From Bacteroidota bacterium (lineage in GTDB: Bacteria > Bacteroidota > Rhodothermia > Rhodothermales > JAHQVL01), in NCBI GenBank assembly GCA_039111535.1, contig JBCCIM010000017.1, positions 1 to 57,603 on the forward strand: DNA of 57,603 nt, in the 5' to 3' direction. The notes under the pieces were generated by a model. The model was not told where the DNA came from. It searched no databases and saw nothing but the letters and a program-made list of their open reading frames with translations. Shown piece after piece: positions 10,213-57,603 of the stretch. The position numbers and the translations under genes were made by a program. How positions within the stretch are numbered: the stretch's first letter is position 1; each line of letters begins with the position of its first letter.

Positions 10213-12525
10213 ATGAGACACATTCTATTACTTGTACTCGCGATCGTTGTCCTGCCTGGTTGTCGGCCATCGAATCCTGGCGTGCTGGTTTCAAATACTG
10301 AAGAGCTGAACGAGGCGATTTCAAATGCTGAGCCAGGGACAGACATCATCATGGCAAATGGTGAATGGAAGGATGTCGAAATCCGGTTTGTTGGGAACGG
10401 AACGGCTGACAAACCCATCACCTTGCGGGCTGAAACGCCGGGCGAGGTGCTCATTCAAGGCCAATCGGATTTGAAGCTTGGGGGAGAATACCTGGTTGTA
10501 GATGGGCTCTCTTTTACAAATGGGGCATCTCCGTCCAGTGCTGTAATTCAGTTTTTTATTGATAACGAAACGCTCGCCAACCACAGCCGGGTGACCAATT
10601 GTGTCATCAAAGATTTCAACAAGGCGCAGCGAAACATGCAGGATTTGTGGGTGCAGTTTAAGGGCCGGCACAATCAGCTTGACAACTGCTATATCGCCGG
10701 TAAATCCAACCGGGGACCAACCATCCGGGTCGACCTGGCCGGCAACCCAAGCATCAACAACTACCACAGAATCAGCCACAACCATTTTGGCCCGCGGCCG
10801 CCCAAAGGTGGGCCAAGTGCGGAGACCATTCAGATTGGCGATAGCGGTACGTCGATGTCACCAAGCTATACCATCGTAGAAAACAACCTGTTTGACCGAT
10901 GTAATGGTGAAGTAGAAGTTATTTCGAGCAAAACCAATTTTAACACCTTCAGAAATAACGTCTTTTACAAAAGCGAGGGTTCGCTGGTGACGCGGCATGG
11001 CAACTACGCTACCGTGGATGGCAACTACTTCATCGGTGACGACGCGTCGCCTCATGTTGGCGGGATCCGACTCATTGGTACAGGGCACTGGATTGTTAAC
11101 AACTACTTTTACAACCTGCGCGGTAAAATCTTCAGGGGCCCGCTTGCGGTGATGAATGGCATTCCCCGCTCTGCTTTAAACAGGTACATACAGGTTACAG
11201 ATGTTGTGGTCGCACACAATACGTGGGTGAACAGTACGTCGCCGTGGCAAATTGGTGTGGGGTCAAATATAGACCAAAAAGATGTGTTGCCGGCTTCTGA
11301 AATCCGGTCGGAAATCCCCATCCGCACATTGGTTGCAAACAACATTATATACAATACGGAAGGCGACAATACACCCATCCTCCGCTACGATTCCATCGAT
11401 GGTATTGATTTTAAAAACAATGTCATCAATAATCAGGGTGTGGCATTTGACGGTGTTGAAGGGTTAATCGAATACGATTTTTCGTTAACTGAGCTGGAAG
11501 AAAATATCTGGGTGCCGTCAGCGGATATGCCTGATGTCGAAGTGTATGCAGGCTTTGATTTTGATAAGATCGACAGCGATCTGTTAGGGAATGCCAGGAC
11601 TACCAACAATGCCATCGGTGCGACAAACGGTGTACACGCAGAAAAGCCAAATATCATGGATCTGGCGCAGTACGGTCCAGACTGGTATGCCCCAACGACC
11701 ATCGGTGCTGAAGCGCCTGCAACACACGCGGTTGCTAACACCGATGAACTGAACGCTGCGCTTGCAAATGCTGCTGATGGGGATGTGATTACGCTTACGT
11801 CTGCCACATACGAACTCGCGTCATCACTCAAAATCAACAAACCGGTTACCATTCAGTCAGCGGATACAGCGAACAAGTCGCTGATTGTTTACGCAGGGGA
11901 TACCGCTACGCCGGCTTTTGAAATGCATCCCGGCGGAGCGCTTCAGTTGAAATCGGTGGTGCTTGACGGGAACGGCAGGAACTATGCATTTGCCAGCCTC
12001 AAAGAGAATATGTCTAGCCTGTACAATCTGAAAGTTGAAGATTCAGAAATCTCAAACTTTGATTTTGTACTCAAGGCCTATAAGTTCTCTTTTGCGGAGT
12101 TTATCGAATTCAAAGCTTCGACCATCAGAAATAGCAACAATGGCCTGGAGCTCTCCGGTGAAGACGACGATAAGGGGGACTACAATGCAGAGAATATCTA
12201 TATCGTAGACAGTACTTTTGACAGGGTTAATAAAAACGTGATTGATTACTATCGGGGTGGATATGATGAATCGACGGTGGGGGGTAATCTGGTTGTACGG
12301 GGGAGCACGTTTACGAATAGCGGTGCCGGCGAAGAAACCGGGATATTGATTAATACCTATGGCATCATCAACGTCGATATTTCCGAAAATCAATTCCGGA
12401 ACAACGCGGTGAAGCTTGTTGCGCGCCTCTGGGGTGCACAGAACAATTCGCATACAGACAATGTGATCCAAAACTCTGGACAATTAATTGTCGAGCAAAA
12501 TCTCCCGTTGAAGCTCGTGTACTAA
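10213..12525 (+). CDS. Two-domain PL6 alginate lyase (chondroitinase-B-like) lipoprotein
   Basis: I choose ATG 10213, because it opens a lipoprotein signal peptide (MRHILLLVLAIVVLPGC); an earlier in-frame ATG at 10159 adds a non-signal leader. The protein has about 770 residues and two parallel beta-helix domains: residues about 25-440 hold the PL6 catalytic core, and about 510-770 form the second helix domain. PL6 landmarks are visible: FGPRPPKGGPSAETIQIGDS, the lysine K240 in ISSKTNF and the arginine R261 in LVTRHGN, with the same 21-residue spacing as the catalytic Lys/Arg pair of the characterised PL6 enzyme AlyGC. It would be lipid-anchored in the envelope and cleave alginate to unsaturated uronates for the TRAP and KdgK/Eda route. 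Its stop overlaps that of the convergent MarR gene. Confidence 0.92.
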   Translation: MRHILLLVLAIVVLPGCRPSNPGVLVSNTEELNEAISNAEPGTDIIMANGEWKDVEIRFVGNGTADKPITLRAETPGEVLIQGQSDLKLGGEYLVVDGLSFTNGASPSSAVIQFFIDNETLANHSRVTNCVIKDFNKAQRNMQDLWVQFKGRHNQLDNCYIAGKSNRGPTIRVDLAGNPSINNYHRISHNHFGPRPPKGGPSAETIQIGDSGTSMSPSYTIVENNLFDRCNGEVEVISSKTNFNTFRNNVFYKSEGSLVTRHGNYATVDGNYFIGDDASPHVGGIRLIGTGHWIVNNYFYNLRGKIFRGPLAVMNGIPRSALNRYIQVTDVVVAHNTWVNSTSPWQIGVGSNIDQKDVLPASEIRSEIPIRTLVANNIIYNTEGDNTPILRYDSIDGIDFKNNVINNQGVAFDGVEGLIEYDFSLTELEENIWVPSADMPDVEVYAGFDFDKIDSDLLGNARTTNNAIGATNGVHAEKPNIMDLAQYGPDWYAPTTIGAEAPATHAVANTDELNAALANAADGDVITLTSATYELASSLKINKPVTIQSADTANKSLIVYAGDTATPAFEMHPGGALQLKSVVLDGNGRNYAFASLKENMSSLYNLKVEDSEISNFDFVLKAYKFSFAEFIEFKASTIRNSNNGLELSGEDDDKGDYNAENIYIVDSTFDRVNKNVIDYYRGGYDESTVGGNLVVRGSTFTNSGAGEETGILINTYGIINVDISENQFRNNAVKLVARLWGAQNNSHTDNVIQNSGQLIVEQNLPLKLVY

Positions 12526-12965
12526 AGTTCTTCCAGTGCATTGTAATTCTCCCAGATCTGGTTGACTACCTTTTGGAAGACTTCAAAATCTGCCTCGGAG
12601 ATGTTGCGATGCCCTACGCTGCGCAGTTGCATCACCATGGGCAGTACCGCAAGCACCAATGCTTCGCCGGCTTCGGTGATCACCAGCTTGTATCGCTTCT
12701 GATCATCTACAAACCGCTCTTTGCTGATCAGGCCTTTTTTCTCCAACCCCGAGATTACTTTGGACGTGGCTGCTTTGTCGCGGTAGTTGGTTTTTGTGAT
12801 TTCTGCTTGTGAGGCGTCTGGCCGGAGCTCGTAGATGCGCTGCAAAATAACCCACTGCTCGATGGAGAGATCGATTTCCTTTCTTTTGAATTGCCGCAGA
12901 TACGAAAGCTGTACCCGCTTCAGCGCCCGGTCCATGTAGAACGCAAACCCGCCCGTTAAGTCCAT
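12522..12965 (-). CDS. MarR-family regulator, divergent from hppD
   Basis: A winged-helix MarR protein of about 147 residues. I take the ATG ending at 12965 (MDLTGGFAFYMDRALKR), preceded by GGGAGTGG; the longer frame upstream shows no family similarity. Core features are IEQWVILQRIYE, the recognition-helix region DKAATSKVISGLEKKGLI and the wing FVDDQKRYKLVITEAGEAL. The neighbouring divergent promoter of hppD carries two GTTG-N6-CAAC palindromes, so the regulator probably controls 4-hydroxyphenylpyruvate (tyrosine) catabolism, sensing an aromatic acid (inference). The 3' end overlaps the PL6 gene tail to tail. Confidence 0.88.
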   Translation of the reverse strand: MDLTGGFAFYMDRALKRVQLSYLRQFKRKEIDLSIEQWVILQRIYELRPDASQAEITKTNYRDKAATSKVISGLEKKGLISKERFVDDQKRYKLVITEAGEALVLAVLPMVMQLRSVGHRNISEADFEVFQKVVNQIWENYNALEEL

Positions 12966-13049
12966 ACCCACTCCCTTGAAAATAATATAGCAAGCCTCAT
13001 TTTGGTAGAAAATAAGCAATATTAAATAAAAAACAGGAGAGGCTAAACA

Positions 13050-13093
13050 TTGTGAAAGGTTGAAGGTTCAACTATATTGGTTGAGGGTTCAAC
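13050..13093 (+). promoter_or_regulatory. hppD promoter overlapped by two tandem MarR operators
   Basis: TTGTGA (13050-13055) and TATATT (13073-13078) are separated by 17 bp, forming a good sigma-70-type promoter toward hppD. The spacer is filled by a perfect palindrome, GTTGAAGGTTCAAC, at 13059-13072. A second near-perfect copy, GTTGAGGGTTCAAC, lies at 13080-13093, exactly 21 bp (two helical turns) further on. A dimer bound at the first site would block RNA polymerase directly. The sites are about 95-130 bp before the divergent marR start, so autoregulation is possible. Confidence 0.72.
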
Positions 13094-13264: not shown

Positions 13265-14398
13265 ATGACAAATACAACTGCTGAACTTCCCCAGGTTTTT
13301 GAAGGTGCCCAGGACTTTATGCCGATCAACGGCACAGATTACCTGGAACTGTATGTGAGCAATGCCCTGCAAGCCGCCCACTATTATCAGACGGCTTTTG
13401 GTTTTCAACCGCTGGCCTACTCTGGCCTGAAAACTGGTGCCAGAGACCGCGAATCGTATGTTGTGGTGCAGGACAAAATCCGCCTTGTGCTGACGTCGCC
13501 ACTTAACAGCAACACGGCTATTGGCAAGCACATCGACAAACACGGTGATGGCGTAAAAGTAACGGCGCTATGGGTAGATGACGCCACTTATGCGTACGAA
13601 GAAGCGGTAAAGCGCGGCGCTACTTCTTTTATGGCACCGGTTACCGAAGAAGATGCACACGGGAAAGTTGTACGGTCGGGTATTCACACCTATGGTGAAG
13701 TGGTGCACATTTTTGTGGAGCGCAAAGACTACCGCGGTATTTTCCTGCCTGGCTATGAGAAGTGGGAGCCCTCATTCCGTGCTGAAACTGTTGGTCTGAA
13801 GTATGTTGACCATATGGTGGGTAACGTTGAGCTTGGAGATATGAACAAGTGGGTCGACTTTTATGCCAACGTGATGGGTTTCACGCAGATCATGTCGTTT
13901 GACGACAAGGACATTTCTACCGACTACACGGCGCTGATGAGCAAAGTGATGTCGAACGGCAACGGTAAAATCAAATTCCCGATCAACGAGCCGGCCGCCG
14001 GCCTCAAAAAATCTCAGGTTGACGAATACCTCGAGTTTTACGAAGGTGCTGGTGTGCAGCATATCGCCGTGGCGACAGATAACATCATCGAGACTGTGCG
14101 TGACATGCAGGCGCGTGGCGTTGAATTTTTGCGTGTTCCAACCACCTACTACGATGTGTTGTTAGATCGTGTTGGTGAGATTGATGAAGATCTCCAGCCG
14201 CTCAGCGATTTGGGTATTCTTGTAGATCGCGATGACGATGGATATCTGCTGCAGATCTTTACCAAACCGGTCAACCCGCGCCCAACGCTCTTTTTTGAAA
14301 TTATCCAGCGCAAAGGCGCCCGCTCTTTTGGCAAAGGGAATTTCAAGGCGCTCTTTGAGGCCATCGAAAGAGAACAGGAACAGCGCGGTACATTGTAA
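13265..14398 (+). CDS. hppD: 4-hydroxyphenylpyruvate dioxygenase
   Basis: This 377-residue Fe(II) enzyme converts 4-hydroxyphenylpyruvate to homogentisate in tyrosine breakdown. It has the two-domain vicinal-oxygen-chelate fold; the three iron ligands are H183 (VDHMVGNV), H266 (GVQHIAVAT) and E345 (FFEIIQRKG). The C-terminal gate helix region GKGNFKALFEAIEREQ is intact. Homogentisate dioxygenase and the later pathway genes are not in the window. The gene is preceded by the MarR-type operator and followed by a strong terminator, so it is probably transcribed alone. Confidence 0.96.
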   Translation: MTNTTAELPQVFEGAQDFMPINGTDYLELYVSNALQAAHYYQTAFGFQPLAYSGLKTGARDRESYVVVQDKIRLVLTSPLNSNTAIGKHIDKHGDGVKVTALWVDDATYAYEEAVKRGATSFMAPVTEEDAHGKVVRSGIHTYGEVVHIFVERKDYRGIFLPGYEKWEPSFRAETVGLKYVDHMVGNVELGDMNKWVDFYANVMGFTQIMSFDDKDISTDYTALMSKVMSNGNGKIKFPINEPAAGLKKSQVDEYLEFYEGAGVQHIAVATDNIIETVRDMQARGVEFLRVPTTYYDVLLDRVGEIDEDLQPLSDLGILVDRDDDGYLLQIFTKPVNPRPTLFFEIIQRKGARSFGKGNFKALFEAIEREQEQRGTL

Positions 14399-52908: not shown

Positions 52909-54273
52909 TTATACCTGTACACTTTTTTGCTCCGCCAAATCAAAGACAGCCGTGAAGTAGAAGGTTGAGCCGACGCCTTCCTCGCTTTCCAGCCATATTT
53001 CTCCCTGCATCGAATGTACCAGTTGCATGGAGATGGTTAGGCCGAGGCCCGTGCCGCCGAATTGCCGGGTAATGGTACCGTCTGCCTGGGTGAATGCTTC
53101 GAAAATCTTCTTCTGCTTGTTTTTGGGGATACCAATGCCTGTATCCTTTACAGAGAGCACAACTTCCACTTGTTTATCTGTATTGGACTTGATGCGTGCG
53201 CCTATGTCTATACGACCACCGGTGGGCATAAATTTGACCGCATTGCCGATCAAATTGATCAGAACCTGTTTGAGTCGGTCGCTGTCACCCAACAGCGTTT
53301 GAGGTATGTCAGGGCTTATACGGACATCAAATTGAATGTCTTTTGATCCATTGCCGGCGATGTATATCGTACAAAGCTCCTGAAGAATAGCCATCAGGTC
53401 AAACGGTTTTGAAATCAAATCAACCTTTCCGTCCTCTAATTTTGAGATGTCAAGGATGTCGTTGATGATGCGCAGCAGACTTTCTGCAGAACTTAAAATC
53501 GTATCTGTTATATCTTGCTGCTCTTCGTCAAGCGGGGTGTCTCGCAACAAGTCGGCCATGCCCAGTACACCATTCATGGGGGTACGAATTTCATGGCTCA
53601 TGTTTGCCAGGAACTCCCCTTTAATTCGGGCAGACTCGATGGCCAGCTCTTTTGCTGTCTCTGCCTGCTCCTTTTCATGTTGCAGCGCTTTGAGTGCATG
53701 TTGGGCTTCACCTAATGCACGATTGTAATTGGCGTCAAAGACACGAGCAAGGCAAAAAATGAAAACACCGATGCCTAGAAAGGCGGAAAGGGAGTGGTAT
53801 GTAAGGATTCCTTCGGGGGCATCGGGAAGATCAATAAATTCAGTGTGCGTTAGCAATAACACAAACCCAAGCGCCAGGAGGTTGACGCCGAGCCAGATTA
53901 CGCCGGCTCGCTTGCCGAGCAGCAAGAATGCAACCAGAGAGAGACTGGCGAGCCATGCATTTGCCGCGTCATAAATACCAAAGCCTGTAACGGCAATAGC
54001 AACCAGGGTATACATGGCAACGAAGAGCATCCCATGTGCCTGCACACGCAGCCAACCGGCGCGTAAAAAAAGTAAGTTGCAACTTATCAATACAACAGCT
54101 GCAGATACAGCATATCCAGCAGCTTTATGACCAATCAGGAAATAGTAGGGGACATAGAGCGACCCCGTCACTAACCAGACTATATTGAGGGTAGTGGAAA
54201 GTTTAGCCTTGCGAAGCAACTCTTCATCGGCATAGAATTGCGCGTGGAATAATGTGCTGAATAGCCACTTCAT
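52909..54273 (-). CDS. Membrane histidine kinase
   Basis: This 454-residue sensor kinase has about six membrane segments in residues 25-178, then a coiled coil (185-215), HisKA with H227 in [12 protein letters not shown], and a HATPase domain with [19 protein letters not shown] and [11 protein letters not shown]. There is no receiver domain and no obvious periplasmic sensor loop, so it may sense through the membrane. It is convergent with the ECF sigma gene (19 bp between stops). No partner response regulator is adjacent. Confidence 0.92.
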
Positions 54274-54480: not shown

Positions 54481-54526
54481 TTGACATTATGGTGCACGGA
54501 CAACTATATTTAGTTGTCCGTGCACC
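54481..54526 (+). promoter_or_regulatory. yceI promoter with a perfect 36-bp palindromic operator
   Basis: TTGACA (54481-54486) and TATATT (54505-54510) with 18 bp between form a near-consensus promoter. Overlapping the -10 box is a palindrome with perfect 15-bp arms, GGTGCACGGACAACT (54491-54505) and its complement (54512-54526), around ATATTT. Each arm contains a GTTGTCCGTGCACC-type 14-mer, also seen before the marR and cytochrome b561 genes. Transcription should begin near 54517, which rules out an upstream ATG at 54489 as the yceI start. Confidence 0.85.
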
Positions 54527-54557
54527 TTTGCTTGATACCCAAATGTTCAATATATCC

Positions 54558-55199
54558 ATGAAGTATGATTCTCTGATCCTGGCCATCGCTTTTAGCCTGT
54601 CTGCTCTGTTAACGCAGCATCCATGCGACAGTAAAGTGATATTTAAGTCTGATGAACATGGTGTTGCCTATTGCACCACAAAAGGGACGTTGTTCAAGCG
54701 GAACGCTGTGGTGGTTGGAAAAAACCTAGACATAGCGGCGCGTCTCACTTGGTCTGCAACGGCTGATCAAGCCCAAGTTGAAGTGGCAGTGCCTGTTCGT
54801 TCATTCAGATCTGGGAGCAAAAAACGCGACAAACATGTCGCGGAGATACTCGGCGCTCCAGAGCATGCGCGTATTCATTTTAGGACTGAGTGGTTGGATG
54901 CTGACATGCTGTGTGAAAGTGTCGTACAGCAGAACTGGATGCTCCCAGGCAGCCTCGAACTGAAAGGGATACGGTTTCCTGTAGACTTTAACCTTCAATT
55001 TTCTTCTGCTACCTCAATCCCAATTGTCAAAGGATCGCTGCAGACAACATTTTCGACGCTAAGTATTGAGGTGCCAAGTGTGGGGCCTGGTGGAATGATT
55101 GCCAGACCTCATGATGACCTCCAACTCTTTGTGCAGCTCCATTTGGAAAAGATAGATGGCGCAGGCGCATTGCATCACTGTTTTTCTAATGGCAACTAG
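54558..55199 (+). CDS. YceI-like secreted protein
   Basis: About 213 residues from ATG 54558, chosen because it opens a signal peptide (MKYDSLILAIAFSLSALLTQ) and lies downstream of the predicted transcription start; ATG 54543 is the alternative. The mature part fits the YceI lipid-binding beta-barrel: VEVAVPVRSFRSGSKKRDKHV, ARIHFRT, and LPGSLELKGIRFPV. YceI proteins are periplasmic, bind isoprenoid-type lipids and are often paired with cytochrome b561. Both belong to the same putative MarR regulon here. Confidence 0.78.
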   Translation: MKYDSLILAIAFSLSALLTQHPCDSKVIFKSDEHGVAYCTTKGTLFKRNAVVVGKNLDIAARLTWSATADQAQVEVAVPVRSFRSGSKKRDKHVAEILGAPEHARIHFRTEWLDADMLCESVVQQNWMLPGSLELKGIRFPVDFNLQFSSATSIPIVKGSLQTTFSTLSIEVPSVGPGGMIARPHDDLQLFVQLHLEKIDGAGALHHCFSNGN

Positions 55200-55285
55200 G
55201 TATGCATGGAATGCACATGGTGCGTGTTATAAGCATGCACGGCAATCAAAATACGCTGAAAACGACTTTAAACGATGGCAGATAA

Positions 55286-55555
55286 ATGACCGGTGACAGG
55301 CACGCAGTTATCATAAAATACGCCACTCTATTGGGTTCATTATTCGGCGTTGCTATGGTGGTCTGCATTCACCTTAGAATAAGCAGCAGTAAGTACCTGT
55401 ATCTTTTTTTGCTTGCCATAATGCTCTGTTTTCTTATGACAAGGAGAACCATAAAGCAGGTTTCATACTGGGAGCTATCGCTGTCATCATTACTAATTGT
55501 CCTTGTAGCATCAGCAATTGTCTTGCTCTACCTTGGGGTAGCATTTATGTGGTAG
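55286..55555 (+). CDS. Small membrane protein of unknown function
   Basis: This 89-residue protein has three hydrophobic segments (about 10-30, 37-52 and 65-87), with basic residues between the second and third (TRRTIKQ). No family recognised. It lies 86 bp after yceI on the same strand, with no terminator seen between, and could be cotranscribed from the MarR-controlled promoter. Ribosome site weak (GATGGCAG upstream). Confidence 0.55.
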   Translation: MTGDRHAVIIKYATLLGSLFGVAMVVCIHLRISSSKYLYLFLLAIMLCFLMTRRTIKQVSYWELSLSSLLIVLVASAIVLLYLGVAFMW

Positions 55556-55781
55556 ACTCAGTTGCTAATTTTGGTAAATGTTCTTTGATATCAAGTGGAA
55601 TGGATAAACGAACAGCGAAGGTGTTTGTAAATGAGCTGCCTGGGCGTTCCAAATTGTAGTCTAGCCTTGCTATTCGTATTATTGGGGCGTGAGAAGTGGC
55701 CGAGTTAGTCTTACGGCGGCTTTTGCAAAATCAAAAAATCACCCGTTTGCTGCCATTATCACAAATCCTGATGATGACCAC

Positions 55782-55830
55782 TTGACATTTCGTTGGCTGT
55801 GCAACTATATTTAATTGTTGCTTGTGCAAC
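55782..55830 (+). promoter_or_regulatory. marR promoter with two directly repeated operator sites
   Basis: TTGACA (55782-55787) and TATATT (55806-55811) are 18 bp apart, the same layout as before yceI. GTTGGCTGTGCAAC (55792-55805) fills the spacer and abuts the -10 box. A second copy, GTTGCTTGTGCAAC, is at 55817-55830, 25 bp on. The marR ATG follows at 55844, so the gene should repress itself. Confidence 0.82.
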
Positions 55831-55843
55831 GTAACAAGCAACA

Positions 55844-56284
55844 ATGAAGAAAATCCCGCCTGCACTCGATGATGCAATGCCGTTTAATGTTTACCGGCTG
55901 GCTTTGCTTTTTCGAAGAGAGCTGATGGATGCACTCTCCGAGTACAAGTTGACGCCAGAGCAGTGGCAGGTAATGCGGGTGCTTTGGGAAATCAGTGAAC
56001 CACTGAATCAGAATGACATTGCCCACATTACGTTACGGGACCGCCATACAACGTCGCGTATTGTCGCTCGGCTTCAACGCGACGGATGGGTAACAAAAAC
56101 GGTGGATCCTAATGATGCACGTGCCTCGCTTATTACGCTCACCGCTTCTGCTGAGAAAGTAAAAGCCGAAGTGCCTGCCAAGCTAATTGGGCGTTTTGAG
56201 CCAATATTTGAGCTGTTGGAAGAAGAAGAAAGCAAACAATTTTTGAGTACGCTCAAAAAGCTCAGAAGCTTTCTTGAAGCATAA
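55844..56284 (+). CDS. MarR-family regulator of the YceI/b561 regulon
   Basis: This 146-residue winged-helix protein has LTPEQWQVMRVLWE, the recognition helix RHTTSRIVARLQRDGWV and wing DPNDARASLITLTAS. Sites of the form GTTG-N6-CAAC lie before its own gene, before yceI and before the cytochrome b561 gene, so it likely controls all three. The ligand is unknown; no conserved OhrR-type N-terminal reactive cysteine is present, as the protein has no cysteine in that region, which argues against peroxide sensing by that mechanism. Confidence 0.9.
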   Translation: MKKIPPALDDAMPFNVYRLALLFRRELMDALSEYKLTPEQWQVMRVLWEISEPLNQNDIAHITLRDRHTTSRIVARLQRDGWVTKTVDPNDARASLITLTASAEKVKAEVPAKLIGRFEPIFELLEEEESKQFLSTLKKLRSFLEA

Positions 56285-56326
56285 ATAACCATTTTAGTAA
56301 GTGTCATGAATATCTTTGCATAATAA

Positions 56327-56368
56327 GTTGTCCGTGCAACTGTGTATTTTTAATGTTGTCTGTGCAAC
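56327..56368 (+). promoter_or_regulatory. Paired MarR operator sites before the cytochrome b561 gene
   Basis: GTTGTCCGTGCAAC (56327-56340) and GTTGTCTGTGCAAC (56355-56368), 28 bp apart, match the sites before yceI and marR. The promoter is less clear here: TTGTCC with TAATGT 17 bp further is one reading. The start codon follows at 56403. Confidence 0.78.
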
Positions 56369-56402
56369 TTGTGTGATGAACACCTAACGATAAGGAAGAC
56401 CG

Positions 56403-56957
56403 ATGCTGTCCCAACGTACACCTGAGCAATATGGACTTAAAGCACAGCGCTACCACTGGCTTAGCGCTGTGCTAATCATCGCAATGATTCCGCTCGGAAT
56501 GATGATGCAAAATGTAGAGGCTGAAGCTACCAAAAGAATATTGTACAGGGGGCATATGATTATTGGTGCGTTAATCCTCCTCATCACAATTGCACGCATA
56601 GCTTGGGGAAGGAAAGACGTAAGCCCTGACCCACCTGAAGGGCTCCATGGAATACACCTGAGGACATTCCATGCGACCCACGTGTTTCTGTACGTATTTA
56701 TTTTCGTGCTCACTTTTAGTGGTATAGCCATGCTGATCAGTAGTGGGATTGGTGATATACTCACAGGTGGTTCTGAAGCCCTAATCCCTACTGATCTCAG
56801 TGAAATTGCACCTGGTCGGGCCCATGGCATTGCTGCCAAAATTTACATCGCTCTACTTGTGGGCCATATCGGAGGTGTCGTGTTTCATCAGACGACCAAG
56901 TCGGACGTTCTGCATCGGATGGGGATTAATGTTAAAAAATCCAAACAGCGCAGCTAA
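56403..56957 (+). CDS. Cytochrome b561
   Basis: This 184-residue, four-helix membrane cytochrome carries histidines in positions expected for two b hemes: QRYHWL (H18) in helix 1, YRGHMIIG in helix 2, HATHVFLYV in helix 3 and LLVGHIGGVVFHQT in helix 4. It would pass electrons between quinol and periplasmic acceptors. AGGAAG precedes the ATG at five bases. Grouping with YceI is seen in many bacteria. Its stop overlaps the upstream ATG of the next frame. Confidence 0.92.
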   Translation: MLSQRTPEQYGLKAQRYHWLSAVLIIAMIPLGMMMQNVEAEATKRILYRGHMIIGALILLITIARIAWGRKDVSPDPPEGLHGIHLRTFHATHVFLYVFIFVLTFSGIAMLISSGIGDILTGGSEALIPTDLSEIAPGRAHGIAAKIYIALLVGHIGGVVFHQTTKSDVLHRMGINVKKSKQRS

Positions 56958-56968
56958 TGGAGGCGATA

Positions 56969-57433
56969 ATGAACACCAAAACTAAAATCAGGCGAACATG
57001 CGAAATGCTTTCTGTAATAGGCATGAGTGCATTCTGCGCGGTGATGTTCGCCGTTGCCTCAACGGCTCTTAGCTATTGGAAGAGCGTCCCTGTAGCAGAA
57101 TTTGCAAGCATTTTTGCCAAACAGGATGCTGATATCATGTCGATGATATCAACAGTGGTTGCACCCACCATGATTGCAATGGTGGCAACCGTGATCATGA
57201 ATTGGAAGCACAGTACGGTGCGCTATCTCTGGCTTGCTTCGGCGGCGGCATTTGCACTCGTTCTCATAGTAACGGTGCTCTATTTCGTCCCTAACAATAC
57301 CGCTTTTGCAACTGGTGAATTCCCGGTTGGTGAAGTAGCGGTTAAGCTTGATCAGTGGGGTAATGTCCATTGGCTAAGAATTGCTTTGGCAGCCATGCCA
57401 GCAGGCCGACTTTATCGCTGCCGTCGTTGTTGA
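56969..57433 (+). CDS. DUF1772 (anthrone oxygenase-like) membrane protein, cut at a sequence join
   Basis: ATG 56969 has GGAGG at six bases and is preferred to the ATG at 56957, which overlaps the previous stop. Four-helix DUF1772 pattern with FVPNNTAFATGEFPVGEV and WGNVHWLRIALA is seen up to about residue 142. The normal last helix would follow, but from about 57,400 the DNA changes to an unrelated polyketide-synthase gene on the other strand, so the final residues (GRLYRCRRC) are not genuine. It forms an operon with cytochrome b561. Confidence 0.65.
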   Translation: MNTKTKIRRTCEMLSVIGMSAFCAVMFAVASTALSYWKSVPVAEFASIFAKQDADIMSMISTVVAPTMIAMVATVIMNWKHSTVRYLWLASAAAFALVLIVTVLYFVPNNTAFATGEFPVGEVAVKLDQWGNVHWLRIALAAMPAGRLYRCRRC

Positions 57434-57603
57434 CCGCCGAGCCGCGAATCACGGCGTGCACGTGATCGCCGTCGGCCAGGGCGCGCTCGAGTGGCTTTAA
57501 CACCACGATCCCAACGCCGTTGCCGAACAGGGTGCCGCGCCCGTCGGAATCGAAGGCACGGCAGTGCCCGTCCGGCGAGGCGATGCCGCCCGGCTGGTGG
57601 CGA
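57403..57603 (-). CDS. Polyketide-synthase ketosynthase fragment (foreign end of the contig)
   Basis: Read on the minus strand from 57602, the frame gives GGIASPDGHCRAFD, GRGTLFGNGVGIVVLKPLE and AVIRGSAVNNDGSDKVG, the typical stretch of a type I PKS beta-ketoacyl synthase between the active-site cysteine and the second histidine. Conservation stops right after DKVG, where KS proteins continue with a Y/F-T-A-P-type motif. Base composition is far more GC-rich than the neighbouring genes. Incomplete at both ends. A chimeric read or contig join is more likely than a real neighbour. Confidence 0.8.

Follow-up and report, generated by a model that had tools for sequence, protein, structure and literature searches.

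Putative paired operators of a MarR regulator at three promoters of a YceI/cytochrome b561 locus

The locus and the closest described systems

The YceI lipocalin BcnA and the cytochrome b561 LcoA of Burkholderia cenocepacia defend against lipid peroxyl radicals and lower lipid peroxidation (PMC9113575). The genes lcoA, bcnA and bcnB form one operon in that species; in proteobacteria lcoA usually lies directly upstream of bcnA and is read together with it, and in alpha-proteobacteria the two are fused (PMC9113575). MarR is not mentioned in the main text of that paper. Among the MarR regulators, MhqR is a cysteine-free repressor that senses quinones in its ligand pocket and acts at the operator TATCTCGAA-ATCGAAATA (PMC12893000).

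The window (the whole stretch of 57,603 nucleotides that was analysed) carries the following genes at its right-hand end.

54558..55199, + strand: yceI-like gene, 213 aa, probably exported (predicted); Pfam YceI 39.2 bits, cut-off 23.7
55286..55555, + strand: protein of 89 aa in which about three hydrophobic membrane segments are seen, of no known family (profile searches, sequence)
55844..56284, + strand: marR, 146 aa, without cysteine; Pfam MarR_2 44.2 bits (cut-off 27) and MarR 43.2 bits (cut-off 24.6)
56403..56957, + strand: cytochrome b561 family protein, 184 aa, with hydrophobic segments (about four) that contain histidines; Pfam Ni_hydr_CYTB 76.2 bits, cut-off 30.1
56969..57416, + strand: DUF1772/anthrone-oxygenase-like membrane protein, GGAGG before the start, truncated at its 3' end where the contig stops; Pfam Anthrone_oxy 26.0 bits

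An earlier, sequence-only reading of this DNA had not recognized the module as a described system; BcnA and LcoA combine the same two kinds of protein, a YceI lipocalin and a cytochrome b561 (PMC9113575), though the arrangement and the regulator differ. As in B. cenocepacia, YceI, as an exported protein, and b561, as a membrane protein, are predicted to be under common control, and the b561 gene is linked to yceI, both lying within 2.4 kb (54558-56957). Unlike the described operon, the window has the order yceI, 89-aa gene, marR, b561, in separate units with separate operator pairs; its YceI is a distant member of the family, and a MarR with operators of its own is added. It is by analogy with BcnA and LcoA that we infer what YceI and b561 may do here.

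The window MarR resembles MhqR in having no cysteine and a palindromic putative operator at its own operon, and sensing in the pocket, which is established for MhqR, is proposed here. In contrast to MhqR, the window operators are of the GTTG-N6-CAAC type (GTTGTCYGTGCAAC) rather than TATCTCGAA-ATCGAAATA, and the targets of MhqR are not YceI or b561. Although the winged-helix MarR domain is common to HpaR, OhrR, SlyA and other MarR families, assignment to any of these was rejected, all equivalog scores being far under cut-off (the best NCBIfam score, for HpaR, was 45.5 vs a cut-off of 121.2). A thiol-based MarR of the OhrR or QsrR type was likewise rejected, as the reactive cysteine is not present; a pocket ligand, not thiol chemistry, is therefore expected as the signal. 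No description of the operator, or of a MarR over YceI and b561, was found in the open literature, outside which most subscription journals lie. The regulator is an ordinary MarR, and its two targets are a pair already known, though arranged otherwise; what is new is the operator-regulator set and its patchy spread.

For yceI, the start at 54558 is likelier than the ATG at 54489, since the latter precedes the expected transcription start. The protein is a divergent member of the family and over 200 aa shared 37 % identity with the YceI encoded beside the orthologous marR in a SAR324 genome, a protein that also matches the YceI profile. Its sequence matched no solved chain, an AlphaFold2 model built from two sequences only had a mean pLDDT of 42, and no relatives were found on plasmids. 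The two other yceI genes of the same genome had no paired sites of the window type in the upstream regions examined. The 89-aa gene is probably read together with yceI. No homologue of the b561 protein other than the window's own was found in the class at E 1e-20.

The last gene had been called DUF1772, for which only a sub-threshold Anthrone_oxy match was obtained (26.0 vs 27.3 bits), the gene being cut at the contig end. Read on the - strand, the last 190 bases (approximately 57411-57603, 69 % G+C) look by eye like part of the ketosynthase of a polyketide synthase, to which the truncated DUF1772-like gene is fused. The genome yielded no second copy of this fragment, and the fusion probably reflects a join made in assembly where the contig ends.

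Putative operators and promoter layout

Six related 14-mers, noted previously as pairs before yceI, marR and b561, were all located at the expected positions, and near-consensus promoters were identified for the first two genes.

54481..54510, + strand: yceI promoter, TTGACA (54481-54486), N18, TATATT (54505-54510); consensus 11/12
54491-54504, - strand: putative operator 1 of yceI, GTTGTCCGTGCACC, in the spacer and abutting the -10 box; ortholog matrix 17.2 bits, rank 5
54513-54526, + strand: putative operator 2 of yceI, GTTGTCCGTGCACC, over the expected transcription start; ortholog matrix 17.8 bits, rank 4
55782..55811, + strand: marR promoter, TTGACA (55782-55787), N18, TATATT (55806-55811); consensus 11/12
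55792-55805, + strand: putative operator 1 of marR, GTTGGCTGTGCAAC, abutting the -10 box; ortholog matrix 19.1 bits, rank 1
55817-55830, + strand: putative operator 2 of marR, GTTGCTTGTGCAAC, the weakest of the six; ortholog matrix 10.9 bits, rank 6
56327-56340, + strand: putative operator 1 of b561, GTTGTCCGTGCAAC; ortholog matrix 19.0 bits, rank 2
56355-56368, + strand: putative operator 2 of b561, GTTGTCTGTGCAAC; ortholog matrix 18.7 bits, rank 3

The centre distances of 22 (yceI), 25 (marR) and 28 bp (b561) were as given before, and the different helical phases of the three pairs argue against a fixed dimer–dimer contact. Several details of the earlier description needed correction. Two of the six sites, those of yceI, end in CACC rather than CAAC, and the arms of the yceI palindrome, described as 15 bp long, measure 16 nt around a loop of 4 nt. 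The contrast drawn between an inverted pair at yceI and direct pairs at marR and b561 is present as an arrangement but means little, since GTTG-N6-CAAC comes close to being a palindrome already; a 14-mer is more aptly read as a single putative dimer site.

At yceI and marR alike, the first operator lies within the -35/-10 spacer and ends at the -10 box, and the second starts 2 or 5 bases past the -10 box, respectively, over the expected transcription start. This layout would be that of a repressor keeping polymerase off the promoter. No good -35/-10 match was found at the b561 promoter, where the candidates picked out by eye are TTGCAT with TGTGTA or TATTTT.

Single sites were not unusual in the window (31 matches at two mismatches vs 22.6 expected), whereas GTTG-N6-CA[AC]C occurred 12 times vs 3.7 in shuffled sequence, the null being 1000 dinucleotide-preserving shuffles of the whole 57.6-kb window. 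Pairs within 40 bp were seen four times vs a mean of 0.01, with at most one pair in any shuffle. Three of these four pairs are the yceI, marR and b561 promoters, and the fourth (13059/13080) precedes another MarR gene. A pattern search of the rest of the draft genome (6.59 Mb, 355 contigs, 97.6 % complete) found no other paired promoter; the best other sites were single, the four inspected fell inside genes, and there was no genome-wide excess of the operator pattern over the reversed pattern. Targets elsewhere are conceivable, given that the genome is a draft of this completeness.

Conservation with MarR orthologs

Orthologs of the window MarR are rare and were found in other lineages at 40–57 % identity. 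Among 245 genomes of the class, two Fodinibius-type genomes encode a 55 % identical protein; further orthologs were found in MAGs of Acaryochloris (57 %), SAR324 (48 %) and Spirochaetales (41 %), with one more within the phylum (genome G485). Cysteine is absent from the window MarR and from four of the five orthologs, the spirochaete protein having one. No relatives were detected in viral contigs, and plasmids yielded nothing but matches below 60 % identity.

The sequence-only reading had staked its proposal on the presence of the sites at orthologous promoters, and TTG-N6-CAA sites of the same type were found before marR or its neighbour in every ortholog. In both Fodinibius species marR is preceded by AGTTGCATAGACAACT and the gene after it by AGTTGTCTATGCAACT or AGTTGTCCATGCAACT. 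Acaryochloris has two copies of GTTGTCTGTGCAAC ahead of marR and GTTGTCTAAGCAAC ahead of the following gene, and its marR promoter repeats the order of the window, TTGACA-AA-GTTGTCTGTGCAAC-TATACT, with the second GTTGTCTGTGCAAC 31 bp on. Three sites lie ahead of a yceI-marR pair in SAR324, and the spirochaete and G485 have GTTGTCTGAACAAC and CTTGTCTGCACAAG, respectively. A putative palindromic operator at marR's own promoter is kept in orthologs. Several more distant MarR matches (under about 38 % identity) had no TTG-N6-CAA site upstream, and two YceI relatives without an adjoining MarR, from two genomes of the phylum and serving as a negative control, had no such site in front.

A 20-position matrix was built from twelve ortholog sites (Fodinibius, Acaryochloris, SAR324, spirochaete and G485), none of them from the window; MarR matches under about 38 % identity, except that of G485, were left out. 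Scanned over 57.6 kb, this matrix ranked the six window sites 1–6, five of them at 17.2–19.1 bits vs 10.4 bits for the best background, the outer letters being partly selected because the input sites were chosen with TTG-N6-CAA. The site at 55817 was near background (10.9 vs 10.4 bits). A motif-free comparison of the three window promoters with those of Fodinibius and Acaryochloris returned the operator as the best shared 16-mer in 15 of 15 cases, with 12–15 of 16 positions identical vs null means of 11.1–12.2; the same comparison did not recover the operator with SAR324 and recovered it weakly with the spirochaete. The short pattern AGTTGYNYRKRCAACT was rejected as a definition of the regulon: in the 245 genomes of the class it gave, besides the MarR orthologs, scattered single matches, many in repeats or unrelated places.

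The partner genes vary among the orthologs. In Fodinibius and Acaryochloris the orthologous marR is followed by a membrane protein of approximately 153 aa with no Pfam family and with the operator before it (L046:8880-9341, L047:8745-9209, L049:5512-5973). The spirochaete neighbour looks DoxX-like by eye and has no Pfam match. Just before a more distant MarR gene in the same order lies the pair GTTGATGAGGCAAC and GTTGCTCAGGCAAC, 29 bp apart (L014:4454-4494).

Gene transfer of the module is likely, not proved, in view of its G+C content of 46 % (51 % for the window), a b561 without a close relative in the class, and MarR orthologs scattered over phyla.

Proposed regulon and alternative readings

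That one MarR acts at three promoters through paired operators, as first proposed from the sequence, is well supported by the pairing test and the ortholog matrix, binding itself being predicted. The sites, their pairing, the layout of the yceI and marR promoters, the conservation with MarR orthologs and the lack of cysteine are there in the DNA; binding, repression, an inducer and a protective role are what we infer. We consider it likely that MarR is an autorepressor that acts on paired operators at the three promoters, is released by a ligand and controls an envelope protection by YceI and b561; the locus very probably represents a compact, self-contained switch for the stress response, ordinary in kind. 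MarR (55844-56284) would repress its own gene by binding GTTGTCYGTGCAAC-type sites as dimers. Every one of the three promoters would hold two dimers, the first in the interval from -35 to -10 and the second on the transcription start, so that RNA polymerase would be blocked. The repressor would come off once its pocket takes up a small ligand, for which a quinone-like or phenolic compound, or one arising from lipid peroxidation, is the likeliest candidate. The redox or quinone stress under which the sequence-only reading would look at transcription is a guess. The cell would then make two sets of products, on one side the exported lipocalin YceI and the small membrane protein that accompanies it, on the other cytochrome b561 plus the DUF1772-like protein, and together these would keep envelope lipids or quinones reduced.

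If so, the YceI/b561 pair, a type of system that protects envelope lipids, would have a dedicated ligand-controlled regulator, the matrix could be used to find targets of the same regulator in other genomes, and the inducer would reveal the threat that YceI and b561 meet; the understanding of MarR repressors would be unchanged. A broader reading, held tentatively and with more doubt than belief, is that a so far undescribed MarR lineage with the near-fixed operator TAGTTGTCTRTGCAACTA acts as a portable switch that controls small redox proteins of the envelope. Its patchy distribution over Rhodothermia-type bacteria, SAR324, spirochaetes and a cyanobacterium would probably stem from gene transfer, and in this genome the lineage would provide a YceI/b561 defence against lipid peroxides with a dedicated regulator.

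As the neighbours vary among the MarR orthologs, any function assigned to the regulon is uncertain. It is a serious possibility, if short of probable, that MarR binds the sites while the module is not antioxidant, an aromatic or foreign compound being sensed and the membrane proteins serving export, permeability or modification. Many aromatic compounds are ligands of MarR proteins, the product of the last gene is weakly similar to anthrone oxygenase, and the partners depend on the lineage (the membrane protein without a family in Fodinibius and Acaryochloris, the DoxX-like neighbour in the spirochaete). Against this, YceI and b561 under one regulator match the BcnA/LcoA pairing, and a paralogous MarR in the same genome adjoins a DOMON-domain gene, with sites before both, which is again a redox-type envelope protein.

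We think it improbable that another regulator uses the sites, or that MarR acts on its own promoter alone, with the yceI and b561 copies as relics of promoter duplication. The yceI and marR promoters do have in common a 37-nt block of 76 % identity that looks duplicated and perhaps represents an old duplication, and the yceI sites end in CACC. The b561 sites, however, lie outside this block and score equally high, the yceI sites still reach 17–18 bits within a perfect palindrome of 16-nt arms that decay would lose, and SAR324 independently has sites at yceI.

A terminator or RNA hairpin at the yceI palindrome, its likeness to the other sites being secondary, is very unlikely. The predicted RNA fold is very stable (-31.5 kcal/mol, z -8) and the palindrome was listed as terminator-like, but the preceding gene (52909-54273, - strand) points away, so there is no transcript to end there; a proper T run is absent on the 3' side, a near-consensus promoter sits inside the palindrome, and both halves match the external operator matrix. 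Finally, chance matches in AT-rich intergenic DNA, with which the near-expected count of single inexact sites would agree, are already refuted by the shuffles, none of the 1000 having more than one pair, and by the ortholog-derived matrix, which shows the sites conserved across phyla.

Similar sites accompany other MarR genes of the same genome. The second window MarR (12522-13019, - strand) faces a hydroxyphenylpyruvate-dioxygenase-like gene (13265-14398, + strand), with GTTGAAGGTTCAAC and GTTGAGGGTTCAAC, 21 bp apart, around CTATATT at 13059-13093. These two GTTG-N6-CAAC operators have the layout seen at marR but differ from those of the module in their inner letters (GTTGAAGGTTCAAC), which therefore suggests another specificity. 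On contig 162 (L113, 1383-2439), TTGCCTTGGCAA precedes the paralogous MarR and TTGCCTGAGCAA the following DOMON-domain gene, which fits the theme of envelope redox proteins. Similar sites also accompany a MarR related to this paralogue in a different genome of the order (L015).
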